Assembly: GCA_030295235.1 (NCBI GenBank)
Contig: AP026172.1
Span: forward strand, 372,001 to 436,000
Length of the DNA stretch: 64,000 nucleotides
Reading direction: 5' to 3'
Source of the DNA: Fistulifera solaris
Lineage: Eukaryota; Bacillariophyta; Bacillariophyceae; Naviculales; Stauroneidaceae
The position numbers were made by a program, and so were the translations under genes. The notes beneath the pieces are model-generated. The model was not told the DNA's origin. It worked only from the letters and a program-made list of their open reading frames with translations, and made no database searches. This document shows positions 2,501-20,237 of this stretch, piece after piece. Numbering within the stretch: the first letter of the stretch is position 1; each line of letters begins with the position of its first letter.

Positions 2501-3957
2501 TTAATTTGCCTCGTTTGGCTTGCGGGCGACGAATCGAGAACACCTGTATTGCAAGCTCACCATCGAACGCCGATCGGATGTATACAGGGCCGGATGGCCG
2601 CACGACGACTCTAATATTTCAAAACCGATGTTTTTCAAAATCTCCATCATATCATCCAGCGATAGATCAATTGATGTGAGATACTTTGAGTCGAGATGGC
2701 TTAATCGTTGGTAATAATCGTCCACAGATTGATCGTCGGGTCTCATCGCAGGACCCGACCAGTGCCACAATAAAGGGCCAAAGTGGAAAAGAACGCCCCC
2801 GGGCTTCAGCATACGATATATGACGAGTAGGTACTCCACCACATTCGGACTTGCATCTAAGAAAAAGCATGCGACTACCCCATCCCACTGTCCTGCTTCT
2901 CTGTCGTCGCTATAAATCGAGACGAAATCGCCAGCTGCCATACTAAACCCTGTTGACGTCTCCGCGCTACTATCTTCTTCGGTTTCATTGACTTTCCTTC
3001 TTTTTCAGTTTCGCTTAATGGATTGTCGGTTTCCATTTCATTATCCAAGTTTTTGCGAAGAGGGTGCGAGCCTTCTCCCCCTTTTTTCATGATCATCTTA
3101 TACGGATCGACGTCTGGGATGTGAACTACTCTTACTGGATCGTCTACAGAGTGCACATTACGACTCTCCAGGAGGTAAGGAGAGATGGCCAGCGGAGTCG
3201 ACGGCTGCAACGGCCCGTTCAGAATGTAGTCCGAAGCCAATAACATGTGCAATGAAAACTCGTTGCCTTGAACTGCGTACCCAGACGCTGCTAATTCGCA
3301 AGCGAGCCTCCCCACTCCGGCACCAGGAACGCATAATCGCAATGATCTGTTGTTCAACGGCAGGTACTTTTGTACCATCTGTAGGAGCGCGGCATACGCC
3401 ATATCTCGCTCAACCTTACCTTCAATAGACCAGTCGCGAGCTAAACTTTTGAGCACCGATGATACTTTGGACATCTGCGCATCGGTCGAAAATTGCTGGT
3501 GTGCCATTTGTTGTGAATGAGGCTGACCTGCGTGCCGAAGGATGCAGTCGAGACAGAACTGATTTCGAATCGCCGCATCCTTATACGCATTTGCACGCTC
3601 TTGAAATTCATTCGTTTCTTGTCGTAGTCCTGCAGGTAGCAAGTTTCGTTGCGCCTCGGGTAACGAATGCAAACGATATTGGCTGTTAACCCATTGCTGC
3701 ATAGCAAATGTCGCGTATTGACGATACGCGCGGCATACATCTTCAAAGTGATTGTGTTCCTCGCGATCGTCTTCCATATAGGTCTGGTAGGCCTGAGACA
3801 GCGAATGAAACGGCCTCGCTGCTATCGGTGATTCATTGGAAAGCGATGCCTGTGTAGAGCTAGGAATTTGATTCGGTAAACTCATGGCGTTGACGAGGAA
3901 AACGTGACTAGCAAAGCAACAAACAAAGGAGTGTGAGATTCTATCAGGACGCCTCAT
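2501..3957 (-). CDS. CARNMT1: Carnosine N-methyltransferase (N2227 family), one intron
   Basis: SAM-dependent methyltransferase of the CARNMT1/N2227 family, which methylates the imidazole of histidine in carnosine and in proteins. Seen: the SAM-binding motif VPGAGVGRL, then the family signature QGNEFSLHMLLASDYILN, then FPDVDP-type residues (IPDVDP), and after a frame change GFSMAAGDFVSIY, LKPGGVLFHFGPLLWHW and a C-terminal FVARKP. The two parts join cleanly if an intron is removed at about 2967-3103 (GT-AG, 137 bases; phase agrees: two bases before, one after), giving VDP-AETSTGFSM. The intron is unusual in being open in the upstream frame. A frameshift is the alternative. The start could be the internal ATG at 3885, because the first 24 residues look unlike the family. 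Family call is strong; the exact splice sites are inferred. Confidence 0.85.
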
Positions 3958-4555
3958 CGGTAAGGAAGCACAAACCGCGAGTGTCAGACAAGACTCTCAA
4001 AGCTTTAATTTTCCAGAGGAATCGGCCTCAGTCAGCGGTAGGTGGATAGAACGCTGATCAAGTTTTGACAGTCTCTGGGAGGGTGAAATCTGGAAAAGTG
4101 AAAATCGCGAAAAAACGACACTAACCTTTAACGCTCGAGAACGGAAGCTATTGAGAGCATCGACGACCGTGTCGTTGCTGATCTGCTATGCTCTGCATTG
4201 ATAAAACGAAAATGATTCAGGAGATTGGCTGAATGATAACACAAATAATGTGTATTTCGATCAAATTATAGTTTATGGTCTATTTGCGACGGCGGCGATC
4301 TTTTTCGAGTGGCTCTGGCTGCTGCTCTAGGTGTCATAAGTCATGGTACGACATCGTCCCCTTCATTGCTAAATTATTCATTCCAGTTATACCTGCTAAA
4401 GCTACGGAGTACTAAACAAGTAAATTTATCCTCGAGAGTGGGAACAACGAAAGATCAATGATAAACTAAAAATTCTTAGATCATAACCAATGTTTTCTTT
4501 TATTTGCTACTGGAATCCTATAACCGAGTAGAGTGACGAGAAAAGTTACAGGTTG
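3958..4555. other. Intergenic region
   Basis: About 600 bases between the methyltransferase start and the 3' end of the secreted repeat protein, both on the minus strand. It holds no convincing open frame. It would contain the methyltransferase promoter and the terminator of no plus-strand gene. Nothing else is seen. Confidence 0.4.
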
Positions 4556-10156: not shown

Positions 10157-10937
10157 AGAAGCACTTAAAAATGGACCCCCGCTGCCATAGGCTACAGCGC
10201 CTTTCCATGCCTGGCGACGCAGAATCTTGGCTGCTGTTTCCGCCACTCTGTAATTACTTGATCTGTACACATCGTGTGGGTCTATCACTAGCGCTCTAAT
10301 AGATGGACTCTTGGAGATGAATAATTTGACCTGGAAGAGCGGAATGAACGAATGAATCTTCATCGGCCATCCGAAAGGCGGTCGTCGTTCTTGCAAACTA
10401 TTGAAAATGCGTCCAATAGTATCTGTAAAGTGAATTTCATAACTATGAAAGGAGTGATCTTTTCAGAACATTTGGCTGGTATACGCGAATAGAAGTGACG
10501 AGAATCTCTTTTAAGAACTAAATTTTACGGAGCTGTAGTAACCTTGGTATTACATCGTACTCCGGGTATTTTGTCACGGAGAAACACAATTTTTCTCAAC
10601 GGAAAACCCATGAGCCAATTCTGTGTCGTACAGATTTTCTAAAGCTAACTACTGAACCTCATAAGATTGCCAGTATCTATTTTATAGTTGGGTGGGTACC
10701 TTACCTATTAAACTGGTAGGCATTGCCGTAGCGGTGCGCGGTGCAACTTCGGCACCCGTTGAGAAAACAAACTCAACAAGTTTCATCCAACCTTTGCTAA
10801 CGTCGAGCATCTTTAATAATTGGCTGAAGAAAGTCGTCGGATTGCAACAACGTTTCTCGTAAACAATCAGGTTACATGGCAGCAAATTCGGCCATTTCAA
10901 GACGCAATTTGCTTTCCTCGTTGCTTTGACTTTTGCA
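10157..10937. other. Intergenic region
   Basis: About 780 bases between two plus-strand genes. Minus-strand open frames at 10031-10396 and 10682-10975 lack family features and the latter overlaps the next gene. No RNA gene or repeat is seen. The last part should hold the promoter of the SH3-like repeat gene. Confidence 0.4.
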
Positions 10938-13900
10938 ATGGAGCACGTTGCACCAGAAAACAATTCGCACAGCACTCCCGGTCGGAATTTTTTGCCAGCT
11001 TGTTCAGAAGACTCCGCCGATACGCCTATTCAATACACTTCATTCGATGAGGCGACGTCGAAACGCTTCGACAATGTCCAAATAGGGCTATCCGATTCGC
11101 AAAGCCCTATTAGTGAAGAAATGGACGTTTTCCCCTTACATGCACCAACACCGGCCCGATTACATTCGCTAAACGTCGAAGAAGCAACGCCACTGGTTTC
11201 CAATCGAAGTTTCTTGTCTCATGTGCGTGGAATTCATCGTCCCGCGTCGCCTTCGGGAACGTTTCCTGTTGAATCACCCAATCGAATGAATCATCGTCCA
11301 AGCGAAACGAAAAGTTTGGTTGACTCCGAAGGAGATTTTTCGGTTGAAGAAAACACATCCGTACTACCGCAGCACCTCATGATCGACCCAAACGCAAAGT
11401 CCTTGCACTATCAAATCGTTTATCGAGGTACGGTTTCACTACTGGCTACGCCTTCCATCAACGGGACGCGGAATGGTTCCTATTTGAGTTACGGTGATAT
11501 TTTTGAGAGTTCATGGTGCAGTACAATGCACGAGACAATTTCGGAAAGTGAAGCGCGGCAACTGAAGCCTAGATCCAACGTCGAAAGGCTTCATTCAGGT
11601 CCCCCTACCATGCCATTGCTGCAGAATCACCCCACCAGTGAAATGAATTGCTCACATTCCTTTGTCCGTGTAGATCGTGTGTTGACTAGAGGCTATTCGC
11701 TCAATCCGAGTTCGCAGTCTATTGACTACAATGGATCTAAAACTTCATTTGGTGGGCAATTCTCCGGATTTGTCGTTTCGCATGTCCGCGACCAATGCAT
11801 TGCCAAAAGGCTAGATACCGTACCAGAAATCGAAGAAAGAATTATACTGCTAAAGGTCACCTCATCCTCACCTATACCTGTTTTCTCGGGTCCTTCATTC
11901 GATGCCCCCCAATTGAAAGCAATGGCTTTGCCAGGGACGATAGTGGAAGCATCCTTACGAATTCGACTGCTCAATGACACAGGCGAGGACAGGAGAGTTT
12001 CTTTTCTGCGGCTCAATCATCGGCATGGGTGGCTGGCTGACCGCAGGCAAGGATCTGACGTGCCCACTGTAACTGAAATCCCTATCCATGCGTCGGGAGG
12101 TGGTGATTGTGACGAGTCGATAATGTCGACTGCGTCTACTATGACATCCTTCAGCATGTCCTCTCATGCAAGGCGCAAGCACCGCCCTCCGCGCCGAAGA
12201 ACGGATGCGTCCATTGAAGCTCCTGCATTAAATATCTCTCGAATCAACAGCGAGATTGGTCCCAGTGGTACCCCGGAGAGAAGTTCGTCCTTTCAGGATT
12301 CTAGTCAGTGTTCGAAGAAACTGCCTAGTCCTGTCTCAAATGTATCGCTGCTTTCTGACGAGTCCTCAATAGATCATAACACGTCCGATTTACGCCATCC
12401 TCAATCTCCAGATGTTTCACACTCAACCAATAAAAGCACTGGCTCATCGAAGAGCAAATCAACCGTATGTCTGTATCTCATGCGAGTGACATCACCACGG
12501 GGTCTCAAAATTCTCGATACGCCTCATTTTCAGGTCAATCGCTTGATTCGTAAGAATTTAAATACTTTAGAGGTCATTCCCTCTTCGCACTTGGTAAGCA
12601 AAATGGAATCCGGTCCTCCAAAGAAGCACCATTCTATTTTTCACACCATGTCGGGACGTACAACAACAACGAGCCCTAGTAGCCGTACGGGCAATCCAGC
12701 AATATTCGATTCCGGATCAAGAACTAGAATATTACCGCGTGGTGTTTTTTTCGAAGCTGCAAGCCGGCTAGAGCAAACAGGAGCTTTTATTGACGGTGAG
12801 GGATTAATTAAATTGTCGGATAATAGTGGCTGGGCGATTGTCCCACATGAGGGAGTTGTAATTGATCAGTATTGCGGCTATCAGGGCCAGACCTTAGCAA
12901 ATCGTCGAGCTTTTGAAGAGGTCGGAAACGCAGTTATGCATGAATCGGGTTCCCTTGGCGATGACAACAGGTCGACTATTTGGTTACGTGTAGAAGTCCG
13001 GTCGGGCTTGCCCATTGCTTGTCCTCCGCCAATGGACATCTTCAATGACGGGGATACTTCACCGACATCGTCGCGAGATTCGTCTTCGATCGGCGGTTCT
13101 CATACAGGCTCCAATGTTATTGTTGGACATGAGTCTGATGTGGCTTCCTCTGTCGGAAGCACTTTCATAGATTCGGTCTTTCGGACCCCGGGGAAGAATC
13201 GAGAAGCTGAAGAAAGGCAATCCGAGGTTCCTAAGCCCTTAACTCACGCAGATATTGCTTCCTCTTTGATGAGTGACTCGGTGGCGTGTGGAACATGTGT
13301 TGAGGTACATAAATGGTTTGCACCCAATGATGGAAGTCCGGAAAGACAAGACTATGCACGATTACGAGGCGGTCAGGGCTGGTTACCAATGTATATTAGC
13401 GGAAAAGTGACATCTGTTACAATACCAAAGCCCGAGTTTCGCTTTGGATCGTTCTGGTTTCGAGTCAAATCATCGCGCGGTGTCAAAGCCCGACAGGGGG
13501 CCTTCAAGGAAGGCACCCTCTATTCGCTCTGAAGACGGCGCACGTGTGATGCGCTTCGAGTGCGGAGAATTTTTGAGGGCGTCCGAAATTGTGACAGTTT
13601 TTGCTCTGGACGGTAAAGCAGTGGAGAGTTTCGCCAAGCTGTACAGGAATCGCCATGTACAGCTCTATAGAGGACATGAGCCATTCCGGCCTCTAGCTTC
13701 GTTAGCAGCACCAGCAGAATGGGTTCCTATTTTTGCATCTTCTGAGCAGTTTTTGGAAGAGTGCACAAATGCCCCAAGAATCGAACGTCACAAACAAGGA
13801 TGGAGGTATAAAGTTGTCCCTGAAACTGGTATTGCTGTGCGCAAAGGCCCTTCCTTTGCGTCGGAAACAACAGGAGCCGTCTTGCTTGGTGGGGAGAGTG

Positions 13901-14139
13901 TGATTGTCAACGAACGCGTGACACCAGGAGGCGAGACTATTGCCTGGTTGCGTCTTAATGACGGTCAGTGGGTTCATGACACAGATGACGACGGAATTAA
14001 GGTAATGGCTTCGCACTCGTTGTTTCACCGATCAATCCCCAAACCAAAACGAGAGCAGACGGGTACAGGCACCTTAGACGGGAAGGAAGCGGCTTATAAC
14101 AGAATTGTCTCTCGCTTATTTCACGGCGTAAACAATTAG
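10938..14139 (+). CDS. Large protein with repeated SH3b-like modules
   Basis: A long protein of unknown function, about 1,060 residues. At least five modules share the pattern of bacterial-type SH3 domains: a leading strand, a G-(I/V)-x-(V/A)-x-x-G-P-S-x-x-A-P turn, a hydrophobic GE(S/F)-x-x-(V/A) strand and a closing (W/F)LRL-x-x-x-x-GW. Clear copies: PIPVFSGPSFDAPQLKAM (near residue 315), a GLKILDTPHFQV copy (near 525), LPIACPPP (near 700), GVKARQGPS (near 855) and GIAVRKGPSFASETTGAV (near 965). Between them are Ser-rich disordered stretches. The frame changes at five Gs, 13496-13500; dropping one G continues VKARQGPSRKAP in register, so the two frames form one gene. The start is the ATG at 10938. 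Scaffold or ligand-binding roles are possible, but no partner is implied by the sequence. Confidence 0.65.
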
Positions 14140-14866
14140 ATATTCCGGAGTAATGCGCAGCACATTGACCCTTAGGACGGTTAACATAATTTCCCAGTCG
14201 ATAAAGTTAACACTCTGGAGACTCCGTACGGTAATTTATGCATGGGTGTTAGGTATCGGTACTGGGATGTTTAGCTAGGTATATGGTAGACAAAGATTAA
14301 GGAGACTGGAGACACCAGCCTTTCAAAGTCACAGAAGACAGTCATCACGATGGACAGTAGCGACAAACATTGAGCGCCCCACTATTTTTGTTGTGTCGAT
14401 TTGATTATGAAATACGGGGGCACATCGGTGTAATCTCATCTTTTTAAGGAGTGAGTGGTAAGCACTTCCTTTTGCGTTAAAAAAATTTGTTGGCGTCTCT
14501 TGCAGGCCATCCGTCAACTTTCAAGCATAATCGATGTTACGAAACAAAGCATCCGCCATCACAACTGGACTCTCTAGCTGGAAATAACTTAGTCAGCAAA
14601 GGGCTGCTTTTGCGCATCGGTACTCAGTCCAATAAGTAGAATTGATCTTCAGAGAAGGGAACATAAAAATGTGCGTGGTCGTGTAGTGACCATGACCCAT
14701 GACCATGACCGTACAGTCATTTTCCAGCGGCTTCCTGTTGCATGTTGCAACTGTTCGAAAGAAAGCAAGAACCCTTCCACAATGCCAATACGGGGTAATA
14801 ATTTGCATTGCTTTGCTAGGAATTGGGAACTGTATCGGCCTAGCTCGCCGTCAACCAAAGCCCGTC
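14140..14866. other. Intergenic and upstream region of first selenoprotein U gene
   Basis: About 730 bases. The frame of the next gene stays open back to an ATG at 14699, and this extension contains a hydrophobic stretch (VIICIALLGIG) that could be a targeting sequence. I prefer the ATG at 14867 because it matches the start of the tandem paralogue (MP-x-L-x-x-PKKT). A GACCATGACC repeat lies near 14688-14710. Confidence 0.4.
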
Positions 14867-15634
14867 ATGCCTCACCTGTTTTGTCCCAAGAAGACAAAAC
14901 AGGCTCTCGAGGCATCGCCTGATTTGGGTCACATGAGTCCCTCTGTTCAGAAACTGGCGGAAGATGGAAAACTCGACCATATTTACAACATACCTCTATT
15001 GGAACTCAATTGTCAGTTCGGAATTGTTCGAAACCGCACGGACGAACAAATTCCACTCCAAAAGGCAGTAAAACGGGAGCGTTCAAGACAGAAATCAAAA
15101 GTAACTTTGGTGTTCGCCGTTCGGCGCCCTGGGTGACCTGCGTGCCGCGAGCACGGCCAACAGTTGGCTGAGCTCGTGGCGGAAGAACCGTCCACGGCCC
15201 TTCTCGCCACTGTCAAGGAGACAGGTGCCGATGACGAAGCCCTCCTCGACTTCTACGAAAAGTATTTTGCAAGGCATGCCATTTACCAAGACGAAAAGTG
15301 GAAGTTGTATCATGCCATGGGAGGCAGAAAGATCGGTATAGGCAAGGCGGTGCTTGGATCACTGAAATCCTTCAGACGGTATCGAGCGAAGAAAATTCAG
15401 GCGAGCCATAATATCACTACTGTAGATACATGGATGCTGGGTGGTGTCCTCATATTCGATAGACAAGGAATTCTGCAACATGTAGTTGAAGAAGATTTTG
15501 GTGAGCCCCTTGATGTCCACGCAATTAAAAAAGTTATTGAAGACATCAAGAAGAACCAAGAAAATAAGGATACGGGTAATTCAGCTTCACAATTAGCCGA
15601 GGCTGGCAGTGAGAGTCACCTTACCGAATCTTAA
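14867..15634 (+). CDS. SELENOU: Selenoprotein U (PRXL2/FAM213 family), copy 1, Sec at TGA 15134
   Basis: Thioredoxin-fold protein of the peroxiredoxin-like PRXL2/SelU family, which acts as a thiol redox protein. The frame continues in register through TGA at 15134-15136 (residue 90) into the conserved rest of the domain, giving 255 residues. The motif is FAVRRPG-Sec-PACREHG; in the family this is RRPG-C-x-x-C-R, so the TGA replaces the first redox cysteine. Downstream are TVKETG, a FYEKYFARHAIYQDEKW segment and GGVLIFDRQGIL, all matching the family order. A hairpin resembling a SECIS element lies about 160 bases past the stop. The next gene is a tandem paralogue with the same TGA. Reading the TGA as a plain stop would discard the whole catalytic domain. 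The start at 14867 is inferred from the paralogue. Confidence 0.88.
14993..15158 (+). repeat. 166-base block identical to 16908-17073
   Basis: Every base of this segment matches the segment 1,915 bases downstream in the second selenoprotein U gene. It covers the middle of the coding region including the TGA codon. The sequence diverges immediately on both sides: about seven differences in the 32 bases before it, and differences from the first base after it. Such a sharp block points to gene conversion. Confidence 0.8.
15134..15136 (+). other. In-frame TGA read as selenocysteine, copy 1
   Basis: The codon follows CGG CGC CCT GGG and precedes CCT GCG TGC CGC GAG, giving R-R-P-G-U-P-A-C-R-E. 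The redox pair is Sec-x-x-Cys. No base need be added or removed to keep the frame, in contrast to the single-base breaks elsewhere in the window. Confidence 0.87.
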
Positions 15635-15792
15635 ACTGTTGATTGGAAATTAGAAGGACAGAAATATATAGCTGTGATGGTCGCTTGTTGATGATGTGTG
15701 AATGATGTCCATACATTTCAAAGTAATGGATTGATCAACACTCCTTGATCGCAGTCACTCGGCATGAGCACGAAGTGCGGTAGTCTGGAATG

Positions 15793-15864
15793 ATCATGGA
15801 ATCTGTGAATGACGGTTGTTCTTTTCATCTTCGATGGAACAACTTGATAAGCATATTTTATGAT
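15793..15864 (+). promoter_or_regulatory. SECIS-like element of copy 1, lacking the apical AA
   Basis: RNA hairpin in the 3' flank. Helix I pairs ATCATGGAAT (15793-15802) with ATTTTATGAT (15855-15864), ten pairs including two G-U. The non-Watson-Crick core is ATGAC (15809-15813) opposite TGAT (15845-15848). Helix II is eight pairs, GGTTGTTC with GAACAACT. A UUUU bulge follows, then a four-pair helix CATC/GATG with loop UUC. Eukaryotic SECIS elements usually carry unpaired AA in the bulge; here it is U-rich. It is aligned base for base with the element of copy 2. Confidence 0.65.
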
Positions 15865-16780
15865 ACGCCCTGGCTTTTCCGCCTGTGTGAAACTCCATCG
15901 TCGATGCTTGCTTTTGGCATTTGAATCAATGAATCACCTGGTCAGTTGCGTAGTGAATTATGATACTTATAGAATCGTTACTACGGAAGAAATGGCTCAA
16001 GTTCCGTCGGCTTTGAAATAGAGAAAGCTGTACGAGAGGCTGCGATGGCTTTCTACCACGACACTCTGCAACGATTCTCGAACAGCAAACGCACCGCCTA
16101 CGAAACGATGTCACTAGAGAAAACGCTTGTTCTTTTGGGATGCTCCCTTACATACACTAGCCTCATTCTTCCTTTTCCCACCCTGATCATTCATTAAGTC
16201 GATACCAGCACATCGACGTCGAAGAACGGTCAAAGCCAATCCAAGAAGTGGTGAGCAGGTCAGAGATGATTAATGAGTGATGAGAGATGATAGATGATTA
16301 ATGAGTAATGAGTGATGAATGAACGGTGAACGGTAAACGGTAAACGAATGAGCTTAAAGTTACTTGTTTTAAAACATTATTGAACATTGAACCTATTAAT
16401 AATATAGGAATTTATGTACACTTAAGTTTCGCTACTCCGTATATATTTTAGATGTCATATGACCCGTGAAGCAGTGTATTCTCTTTCCCAACTCCCAACG
16501 GTTTGCATGGTACATTACAGTCTAGTGTCCCTTAACCTTTTCTGTTTTCCGTACCTGGTAACTGGTAACATGTTACGAGCAGCAGAGAGCAGGGGCATAG
16601 CATAGCGGGCTCAAATACCAGGTACGCAGAAGCAGAACACATCATTTGTGATGCATGATGCCTGAGTCATCCTTTCACCTTCTAACGACTTCGTTTCACT
16701 GCCTTCCATCCGTCTATGGCATAAATTTTTGACTTTTAACTTGTATTTGTAAAGCAGCTTGTGGCGATTCGAGTTCCATC
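15865..16780. other. Intergenic region with ATGA-rich low-complexity stretch
   Basis: About 900 bases between the tandem selenoprotein genes. At about 16262-16352 there is a degenerate repeat built from GATGA, TAATGAGT and GGTAAAC units. No open frame of note is present. The promoter of copy 2 should lie in the right part, near the AT-rich stretch before 16781. Confidence 0.45.
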
Positions 16781-17555
16781 ATGCCCAGTCTCGTTTCTCC
16801 GAAGAAGACGAGGCAGGTGGTGGAGGCATCGCTTGATACTAGTCAATTGAGTCCCTCCGTCAAAAAAATTGGTGGAGGATGGAAAGCTTGACCACGTTTA
16901 CAACATTCCTCTATTGGAACTCAATTGTCAGTTCGGAATTGTTCGAAACCGCACGGACGAACAAATTCCACTCCAAAAGGCAGTAAAACGGGAGCGTTCA
17001 AGACAGAAATCAAAAGTAACTTTGGTGTTCGCCGTTCGGCGCCCTGGGTGACCTGCGTGCCGCGAGCACGGCCGACAGCTGGCTGAGCTCGTGGCGGAAG
17101 AATCGTCCGCGGCCCTTATCGCGACGGTAAAGGAGACAGGAGTTGACGACAAAGCCCTCCTCGACTTCTACGAAAAGTATTTTGCGAGGCATGCCATTTA
17201 CAAGGACGAGAAGTGGAAGCTGTATCATGCCATGGGAGGCAGAAAGATCAGTGTCGGCAAGTTAGTGACTGGACTGATGAAATCGTTTCGACGACACCGA
17301 GAGAAGAAAATCGAAGCAAGTCCTAACATTACTGCCGGAGATGGATGGATGCAAGGTGGCGTCCTTATATTCGATAGACGAGGTAATCTGAGACATGTAA
17401 TCGAAGAGGATTATGGCGAGCCCCTCGATACACAAGCCATCAAGAACGTTATTGAAGAAATTAAGCGAAATCAAAGTATCAAGGACACTGATGATTCGGG
17501 ATCGCAATTCGCCGAGGACATCAGTGAGAGCCTCCAGGATACCGAGTCATCTTAA
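16781..17555 (+). CDS. SELENOU: Selenoprotein U, copy 2, Sec at TGA 17049
   Basis: Tandem paralogue of the gene at 14867, with the same order of motifs and the same RRPG-Sec-PACREHG centre; TGA is at 17049-17051. The C-terminal half (ATVKETGVDDKALLDFYEKY, then GGVLIFDRRGNL) is about three-quarters identical to copy 1. The frame from the ATG at 16781 is interrupted at a run of seven As, 16862-16868: with six As it reads VKKLVEDGKLDHVYN, as in copy 1. This fits the homopolymer errors seen across the window, but a real inactivating insertion cannot be excluded. The 3' flank carries a well-formed SECIS-like hairpin with the apical AA, which argues that the gene is or was functional. Confidence 0.82.
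16908..17073 (+). repeat. 166-base block identical to 14993-15158
   Basis: Partner of the identical block in copy 1; see that entry. Includes the TGA codon and the UPAC motif. Its first base follows a T where copy 1 has an A, and it ends just before a G where copy 1 has an A. Confidence 0.8.
17049..17051 (+). other. In-frame TGA read as selenocysteine, copy 2
   Basis: Same context as in copy 1: GGG TGA CCT GCG TGC. The frame downstream of it is open to the normal stop at 17553-17555 and encodes the conserved rest of the domain. Confidence 0.85.
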
Positions 17556-17618
17556 TTATTGGTTCGAATTCAAACGAAGCGGAGCCTTTGGGTAGCACGA
17601 AGCGAAAGATTGGCATGA

Positions 17619-17686
17619 TCATGGATCTGTGGATGACGGTTTATCTAAGCCTTTTGGTCGAAAAACCTGATGAATTTATTCCATGA
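17619..17686 (+). promoter_or_regulatory. SECIS element (form II type) of copy 2
   Basis: Hairpin starting about 63 bases past the stop. Helix I pairs TCATGGA (17619-17625) with TCCATGA (17680-17686), seven Watson-Crick pairs. Core: ATGAC (17633-17637) opposite TGAT (17668-17671). Helix II pairs GGTTTATC with GAAAAACC (eight positions, one A-A mismatch). The unpaired AA sits at 17647-17648, followed by a small helix GCC/GGT closed by a TTTT loop. Every diagnostic part of a form II SECIS is present. Compared with copy 1, both helices differ in sequence but stay paired. Confidence 0.8.
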
Positions 17687-17928
17687 CGCGCCTCCCTTGC
17701 CAACTTTGTGCCGAGCCTATATTATTACTCCAGAGTAGACCAAAATAAGCACGTAGTGTTATTTATTATGAGCGACTTACGACGACTCCGTATCAGTTAG
17801 AATGAACTAGACACTAAAATAATCATCAAGAAAGAACAGTTACATAAGATAACGTTGCTCTTAGTTTTGCAAATGCCCCGAGACTGTCGCTCACACCAAC
17901 GCTCTACCGTATACATGGTATTCTCTTT

Positions 17929-20237
17929 TTAAAGATCGTCATCATCAATGTCGTCATCATCACCATCATTTTCATAAAAGAAGTAATTTCCGCTAGCTTT
18001 TTGCTCCTGATCCTTTTGCGATCCTCGCTTATTGATTCTGTGGGTAGAAGATAAGAAGAAGTTGTGAGTGACGCAACATTTCTCAAATGCAAATGCTTTC
18101 CGAGAGCCATAGAAATCACGCTGGTAGGAAATTAAAACATAAGACTTGAAGCTTTCATAGCCGACACTAGAACAGTGCTCGCGTTTGCGAAAAGGCGTAA
18201 AGAATTGTTTCTCGTCATTCCAGTCAAACACTCACTAGTCACCAATGGAAGACTCACCGAGGACGGAAGTTGACAGGATCACGACGAAATGTAACCTGCA
18301 AGCTCTTGAGAAACGTGTTCATACCCGTGAGAAGCGACTGCGGAGAAGTGGCCGTAGCTTCCACACCAGGCTTTCCCTCGTAGACAACTACTCGATCAGC
18401 CAAATACGTAGCCATGATAAAATCGTGTTCCACGACAAACGCTGTCTTCTTGCTATGCATGATGAAACGCTTAATAACTTTGGCGCAGTTGACGCGCTGC
18501 TCCGAATCCAGATAAGCGCTGGGTTCATCAATCAGATACACATCGGCTGGTTGACCTAGAGCCAAAACGATAGCAAGTCGCTGTAATTCACCGCCCGAAA
18601 GGTTCTGGACACCATTATCGATGATGTTGTCAATTACCAACGGTTTCATCACATCAGATATGAACTGAGGGTGAATGTACGCATCTCGAACGCGTTTGTG
18701 AAGAAGTTGCCGAACCGTGCCCTGGAATTTAGGTGAAATCTTCTGTGGCTTATAGCTTACATTCAGTTCCGGTACTCCAGCCAGCGACGCTTCGTAGTCG
18801 AGTCCCTCAGCTTCAAGCTGAACCTGCTCGTCGCTCTTCAGCAAGCCTGCTAACATTCGCACGAACGTCGTCTTTCCGGTTCCATTTTCTCCAAGAAGCA
18901 CAATAATTTCAGAATCCGTGAATTCGCCCTTTTGAACGTGCAAGATAAACTTCGAGTCATCTCGTGATTGCGTTTTTGTCATGTCTGGATAAGAATAGTT
19001 TTTCAAGATATCGTTCTTGTCGCTACCCGCCTCGGCGCGTTCCGATACCTATTATAAATAAAAATGTTGTAGTCAGCAAACAAATGTCATCTACCGAAAG
19101 CATCGCAACAATATCTCGTGCATACCTTAAACGTCAGTGCATGATCTCGGAATCGCATATTCTCCGACTGAACAAAACCAGCCAAGAAAGCATTGATACC
19201 GTTGCGAACACTATGGGGCATCGTCACTACACCATAACCACCGGCTTGACCGTAAAGAATGCAAATATAATCACTGAGATAGTCCAAAACCGCCAAATCG
19301 TGCTCCACGACCAATACGTAACGCCGATCGGCTCCGGTGCCCTCTAAGATTTTGCGAATCATCGCGGCAGCCGTCAAACGCTGCTTCACATCGAGATACG
19401 ACGACGGTTCATCGAACATGTACACATCACTGACTTGCACAGCGACGGCAGCAATCGCAAATCGCTGCAACTCCCCACCACTCAGTACACCGATCTGACG
19501 ATCGACCAAATGTTCCAATTCAGCTTCTTTCAAAGCCCAGCCCAGCACGTCCCAACCTTCTGCTTCCGTGCGTTCGTCTTTCGATTTGAGTACATCAATG
19601 ACCGTTCCTTTGACGGCGCGGGGGATGTGATCTACATACTGTGGCTTGATGGTGGCTTTCATGGTATCTTCCAAGATGCGGGTAAAGTAGTTTTGCAACT
19701 CACTTCCACGAAAGTACACCAAGATTTCTTCCCAATCCGGAGGCGTCTCGTATTTTCCCAGATTGGGCTTCATTTTTCCTGCCAGGATTTTCAGTGCTGT
19801 CGACTTACCGATACCGTTGGTTCCGACCAAGCCGAGTACCTGCCCCGGACGAGGCATAGGAAGTCGATGCAGCTTGAATGAGTTGGGACCGTAACGGTGT
19901 GTCGTGTTTTTCTCAAGATCTTTCGGGAGGTTGATGATATTAATGGCTTCGAACGGACACTTTTTGACGCAAATACCACAACCTGAAGAAAATGAAAAAA
20001 AGAAATGCAAGAATGGGCAAGATAGGGTAAGAAGGCGTCTTAGAAAGTCAGAAAGGAAGAAGTTGATTTTGCAAACGTACCGATGCAAAGGGGCTCCGAG
20101 ATGAAAGCAATTTTACTCTTCGCGTCGACTTCGATGCACATCTTTCCCAATTTGACGACAGGACACGACTTTTTGCATTCCTGACCACACTTCTTGGGCT
20201 TGCATCTCTCTGCCCCGACGATGGCAATACGTGTCAT
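17929..20237 (-). CDS. ABCE1: ABCE1/RLI1 ribosome-recycling ATPase, four exons
   Basis: Cytosolic twin-ATPase that splits ribosomes after termination and carries two 4Fe-4S clusters. Exons (minus strand): 20081-20237, 19126-19982, 18258-19048 and 17929-18037; introns of 98, 77 and 220 bases, all GT-AG with matching phases, giving 637 residues. Seen: N-terminal cysteines [15 protein letters not shown] and [10 protein letters not shown]; first Walker [10 protein letters not shown] and signature [11 protein letters not shown]; second Walker [10 protein letters not shown] and signature [11 protein letters not shown]; hinge and C-terminal [14 protein letters not shown] and SGNYFF. The last exon, coding for the conserved SGNYFF end, is followed by an acidic tail (DDDDIDDDD) longer than in animal or yeast proteins. 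The start is the ATG before TRIAIVG, as in all family members. It converges with the selenoprotein gene on the plus strand. Confidence 0.96.

Follow-up and report, generated by a model that had tools for sequence, protein, structure and literature searches.

The window analysed here, a stretch of 64,000 nucleotides from the diatom Fistulifera solaris, carries what we are confident is a tandem pair of selenoprotein genes of the SelU type (PRXL2, AhpC/TSA-like) in an allodiploid-looking genome, with a TGA codon at the first redox position predicted to be read as selenocysteine (Sec). Judged from their sequences, these are very probably working-looking SelU genes of an already known family. Contig C20, which holds the window, belongs to a 51.7-Mb genome of 61 contigs, in which many matches come in pairs across contigs (for example C1/C2, C9/C10, C11/C12, C13/C14, C19/C20 and C30/C31). 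The first gene, copy a (C20a), occupies positions 14867-15634 of the forward strand and encodes 255 residues when TGA is taken as Sec, its frame being open except for that codon (15134-15136), the predicted Sec90 at position 1 of U-P-A-C. The second, copy b (C20b), lies at 16781-17555 on the same strand, with its own TGA (17049-17051, predicted Sec) in frame with the conserved part and, near the N terminus, what looks like a break in the frame. The tandem pair recurs on contig C19 (C19a and C19b), where both copies have the TGA. Upstream of the window pair, the two homoeologues of a neighbour gene (10863-14139) each have their frame broken by a single base, at a different site in each, a sign of indel errors left in the assembly. 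Downstream, on the minus strand, lies a gene (18167-20112) that, judged by its sequence, would encode an ABCE1/RLI-like ATPase; its homoeologues differ by a dS of about 0.26.

Both window TGAs stand in frame between RRPG and xxCREHG, as the earlier note had described for these two adjacent genes, and RRPG-[U/C]-x-x-C-R-E is the SelU/PRXL2 motif of other species. A degenerate DNA pattern for RRPG-TGA-x-x-C-R-E, with arginines written as CGN, matched four times in the 51.7-Mb genome, twice on C20 and twice on C19, with no match on the reverse strand and none in the backward control, arguing that the pattern is not due to chance. The TGA is thus conserved in all four copies on two paired contigs, and the [U/C]-x-x-C redox pair after RRPG is likewise present in each, the second redox codon being TGC in 4/4. 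The redox centre reads UPAC in both window copies, UASC and USGC in the C19 copies, and the cysteine paralogue found in the same genome on C30 and C31 reads RRPGCVLCREHG. Beyond the TGA, dN/dS ranges from 0.12 to 0.22 in all six pairwise comparisons of the four copies (146-167 codons), values that are not expected for a frame lying past a true stop; purifying selection acts on these codons. The two window motifs do not support each other independently, since both TGAs fall inside an identical, gene-conversion-like tract of 166 bp (14993-15158 in copy a, 16908-17073 in copy b, forward strand) and count as one observation. The independent observations of the TGA are those of the C19 copies.

Copy a is open on both sides of its TGA and shares the low dN/dS past the codon; copy b leaves the frame when read from its ATG at 16781. 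Here one extra base in a run of seven A (16862-16868, forward strand; six A in C19b) shifts the frame before the conserved part is reached. Two extra bases were found in C19a, beside runs of C and of T, and its frame ends at a TAA 14 residues short of where copy a ends. In the assembly, C20a and C19b are thus open and C20b and C19a shifted, the very arrangement expected if each contig kept one working copy and the other had recently been disabled, a reciprocal loss between subgenomes. We regard such a loss as unlikely, although it is the most serious of the alternatives: the shifts are run-associated extra bases of a kind that is found in other genes of the assembly, and dN/dS is still low in the shifted copies. 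One-base homopolymer indels break the frame in four of nine other homoeologous coding comparisons (the upstream neighbour, a Sec-containing glutathione peroxidase (Sec-GPx), the Cys-PRXL2 gene and one MsrA), a fraction that is not an unbiased error rate, as the four broken cases were chosen after their breaks had been seen. The five unbroken comparisons are two GPx, MsrA on C13/C14, a SelT-like gene and the SelU exon of C1/C2. Two ABCE1-like rows were excluded because an intron is likely, the Sec-GPx and Cys-PRXL2 queries end before their break, and the frame-by-frame comparison of homoeologous loci, being noisy, was used solely to pick candidates. These cases show that homopolymer indel errors are frequent in the assembly; the +1 break of copy b is probably one of them, and the breaks of C19a are probable artefacts too. 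Pseudogene status for copy b and C19a was weighed and not adopted.

The family assignment was examined at the level of profiles, single sequences and predicted fold. Against the Pfam family PF13911, with a cut-off of 27 bits, copy b scored 32.1, C19b 30.7 and copy a 24.3, the matched part lying after the Sec; no PF13911 match was found in the first piece of C19a. A profile of six sequences matched human prostamide/PGF synthase (PRXL2B) with an E-value of 3e-13, and with copy b over the Pfam cut-off the search proposed in the earlier note came out in favour of SelU/PRXL2. Copy a alone aligned with PRXL2B over residues 72-217, active site included (E 1.4e-4), which places Sec90 opposite Cys44 and Cys93 opposite Cys47, the two cysteines being the residues altered in the 9usa double mutant; the TGA does sit at the first redox cysteine of the family, as had been claimed. 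In an AlphaFold model of modest mean confidence (pLDDT 58, core blocks about 70-82), residue 90 comes after a strand (79-85) and before a helix (91-106), an arrangement like that of a thioredoxin fold. In the PDB the model matched PGF synthase best (E 7.8e-7, TM about 0.4), and most of the next matches were peroxiredoxins and thioredoxin-like proteins.

A relationship to SelL, a protein with two Sec residues in UxxU, has in its favour that the only NCBIfam match of copy a is NF040769, a SelL-related redox protein (E 1e-8). We consider it improbable that the family is SelL rather than SelU, given that this match scores 34.9 bits where the cut-off is 120, that the second redox codon is a cysteine codon throughout, and that PGF synthase/PRXL2B is the top match in both sequence and fold. 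Relatives were also sought among viruses and prokaryotes. The viral fold library gave no match at E <= 0.001; in protein-alignment scans the pattern matched in 273 viral and 362 prokaryotic stretches, none of which encoded a relative; and the DNA motif scan hit 3 viral and at least 118 bacterial stretches, for which tblastn with three query proteins over 121 loci gave a best E-value of 0.036. These viral and bacterial DNA matches are taken as chance. As a SelU-type protein, the product would be a thioredoxin-fold protein in which, by analogy with the family, Sec90 would attack a peroxide or disulfide, Cys93 would resolve the selenenyl-sulfide, and thioredoxin or a similar donor would provide the reduction.

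Downstream of each gene we found a candidate SECIS element, and in 4/4 copies the 3' region contains the SECIS core, ATGA ... GA, along with a stable helix. In copy a the hairpin (15809-15848, forward strand; ATGA ... TGAT) starts 175 nt past the stop codon and has UU at the usual AA position; in copy b it lies at 17633-17671 on the same strand, 78 nt past the stop codon, and has an unpaired AA. A scan for RTGA-hairpin-TGA gave one match in each of the two window 3' regions, against shuffle means of 0.05 and 0.0 (20 shuffles each), and at corresponding places on C19 it gave one match in C19b and two in C19a. When the whole window was scanned on both strands with the core ATGA[CT]GG, which was picked only after the candidate hairpins had been seen, three matches were obtained, two in the 3' regions of copies a and b and the third at 13045 inside the upstream gene (shuffle mean 0.1 per strand, 10 shuffles). 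The hairpin by itself is not distinctive, as a plain-ATGA scan of the window returned 11 and 7 matches per strand compared with about 5.7 per shuffled strand. Over the four copies, 93.5% of the cells of the helix are paired, against 25-58% in slid controls, and one pair is compensatory (G-C in C20a and C19a, U-A in C20b and C19b); with four sequences shuffling is a weak control, the pairing being reached in 84/500 shuffles and the covariation score in 59/500. The Rfam models recognised no SECIS, either in the window at the gathering threshold or in 14800-18000 at a relaxed one.

The most unusual detail of the locus is the apical loop predicted for copy a. According to the SECISearch rule as given in PMC2375036, an unpaired AA (or CC) lies 10-13 nt past the quartet. 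By eye, copy b has AA 10 nt past the quartet, copy a has TT (UU) at that position, departing from the AA/CC consensus, C19a has CA then CC, and C19b has AG then CC; the CC of the C19 copies lies 12 nt past the quartet by its letters, yet within the predicted mini-stem, and AA is absent from the apical loop in three of the four copies. It is conceivable, though on balance doubtful, that copy a yields a selenoprotein by means of a UU-type SECIS and that the apical loop is perhaps generally relaxed in this diatom, which would rely on the quartet and an ATGA-Y-G start. Should this be so, the tandem pair would be a natural experiment, with two paralogues at one locus whose Sec centre is held identical by gene conversion, one served by a SECIS of the UU type and the other by one of the AA type. 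Other SECIS candidates also begin with ATGACG, namely those of SelU on C1, of the Rdx-family SelT-like genes on C13/C14, of the selenophosphate synthetase gene SelD on C16 and of a PRXL2-type gene on C4; the SelT-like genes are candidates by family, with the position of the Sec codon not located. In the Sec-GPx genes of C19/C20, a conserved 3' hairpin (ATGATGG, with AC in the loop nearer the quartet, about -4 kcal/mol) was missed by the first scan, has further matches within the same stretches and is tentatively a candidate SECIS; because this element proved weak on re-check, we lowered our confidence in the UU-type reading slightly.

The possibility that translation really stops at the TGA and that the frame behind it is a relic, making these genes pseudogenes, can be judged very remote. 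It draws on the frame breaks of copy b and C19a and on the early TAA of the latter; against it stand the low dN/dS past the TGA in every comparison, the TGA kept in 4/4 copies, the conserved hairpins, and the appearance of the one-base homopolymer breaks elsewhere (the four comparisons chosen for their breaks) as assembly errors. That the TGA lies in a short intron and is spliced out can be practically dismissed: splicing does apparently occur nearby in the family, with an intron seen by eye directly before the Sec codon of the C1/C2 SelU gene, but RRPG and xxCREHG align without gaps to the cysteine paralogue and leave no insert of usual intron length between them.

Regarding the history of the pair, 38 informative sites past the TGA group the a copies together and the b copies together, compared with one that groups by contig, and the protein tree supports the a pair at 95 and the b pair at 55; the duplication therefore predates the split of the C19 and C20 contigs. 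Before the TGA, 5/5 informative sites, in codons present in all four copies, group by contig. Between the window copies, which share the 166 identical bases, dS is 0.03 before the TGA and 0.79 after it, and between C20b and C19b it is 0.97 before and 0.23 after. For C20a and C19a it is even, 0.86 before and 0.83 after, and this difference between the pairs makes b the likely recipient. Most likely, then, the active-site part of copy b was later overwritten by copy a through gene conversion, with 14993-15158 as the likely donor tract and 16908-17073 as the likely recipient. A side observation concerns the a copies themselves (window 14867-15634 and L009 4717-5438), whose dS of 0.85 exceeds that of the flanking genes by a factor of two to three, the 0.23 of the b copies past the Sec codon looking normal. 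The value of 0.85 exceeds all ten comparison rows, nine of which fall between 0.17 and 0.38 and the remaining one, Cys-PRXL2, at 0.68. Together with the UU-type SECIS of copy a, this high divergence is among the most interesting loose ends of the locus.

The genome also encodes machinery for Sec, which the earlier note had named as a check and which was found for tRNA-Sec, eEFSec and SelD, plus SepSecS. Six tRNA-Sec loci scored over the cut-off, with a TCA anticodon by eye; they include tandem pairs about 0.2 kb apart (C27:330126-330416 and C29:316339-316634) and single genes on C3 and C4. SepSecS was over the cut-off on C9 and C10, eEFSec on C11 and C12, and SelD on C16, where two TGAs occur, one of them in LKGUACK, the expected Sec place of this protein. 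PSTK-like matches on C30 and C31 were weak and under the cut-off. In the SelU pair, Sec would be inserted at UGA by eEFSec together with a SECIS-binding protein.

Several other candidate selenoprotein genes were seen. GPx genes with an in-frame TGA lie on C19 and C20. A second SelU gene, with RRPG|UFYCREQ, is present in L013 (about 3477-4351, C2) and L014 (about 3537-4410, C1); by eye, a phase-1 intron ends right before its Sec codon in both homoeologues, and ATGACGG follows shortly past the stop in both, with a hairpin found by the scan in C1 (-14.2) and none in C2. A third, PRXL2-type gene with an in-frame TGA (SLGUPLCQE) was found on the minus strand of L010 (C4, about 5061-4114) and at C3:792639-793165. 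Its TGA is conserved in both homoeologues, its N terminus resembles a signal peptide by eye, its open frame contains a second, probably intronic TGA, and on C4 a stable ATGA hairpin (-18.0) lies past the stop. An MsrA match with TGA on C7 was dropped, as by eye it has Cys for its active-site residue and its TGA resembles the end of an exon.

Neither a SelU in a diatom nor a tandem SelU pair proved as unusual as had been supposed. In the accessible parts of the published surveys, two SelU are reported among the 16 selenoproteins of Thalassiosira pseudonana (PMC2375036), and SELENOU is among the most widely distributed algal Sec proteins, its Sec-containing form being present in over half of 36 genomes of algae (PMC7539508). 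F. solaris is mentioned once in the accessible main text of the latter, for PDI_e. In vertebrates, every Sec-containing SelU falls in SelU1, according to the available part of a further study (PMC3316567). Among the matches listed in our literature search, which covered mostly papers outside subscription, none describes this particular pair.

In conclusion, diatom selenoproteomes gain a well-supported, predicted pair of Sec-containing SelU genes on two paired contigs, whose proteins would come out truncated wherever gene prediction takes TGA for a stop. The pair also provides a probable example of a gene conversion that spans a Sec codon, and with its two hairpins a natural way of testing which parts of the SECIS apical loop are required in diatoms.

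Compared with known systems, the predicted proteins resemble the Sec form of SelU/PRXL2 (FAM213) in having an AhpC/TSA-like thioredoxin fold with Sec at the first redox position, and differ in that x-x is PA, AS or SG and that a long N-terminal part precedes the domain; within the genome, the tandem proteins are 37% identical to the cysteine paralogue (C30) and 30% to the second exon of the C1/C2 Sec paralogue. Human PRXL2B (9us9/9usa) has Cys where the diatom protein has the predicted Sec. With SelL (NF040769) they share a Prx-like protein and a redox motif of two-residue spacing, but they score under its cut-off and have a single Sec. As far as the available part of PMC7539508 describes it, and compared by that description only, the closest precedent for the arrangement is in Emiliania huxleyi, a member of another lineage, where two adjacent SELENOU genes likewise form a pair of the same Sec family.
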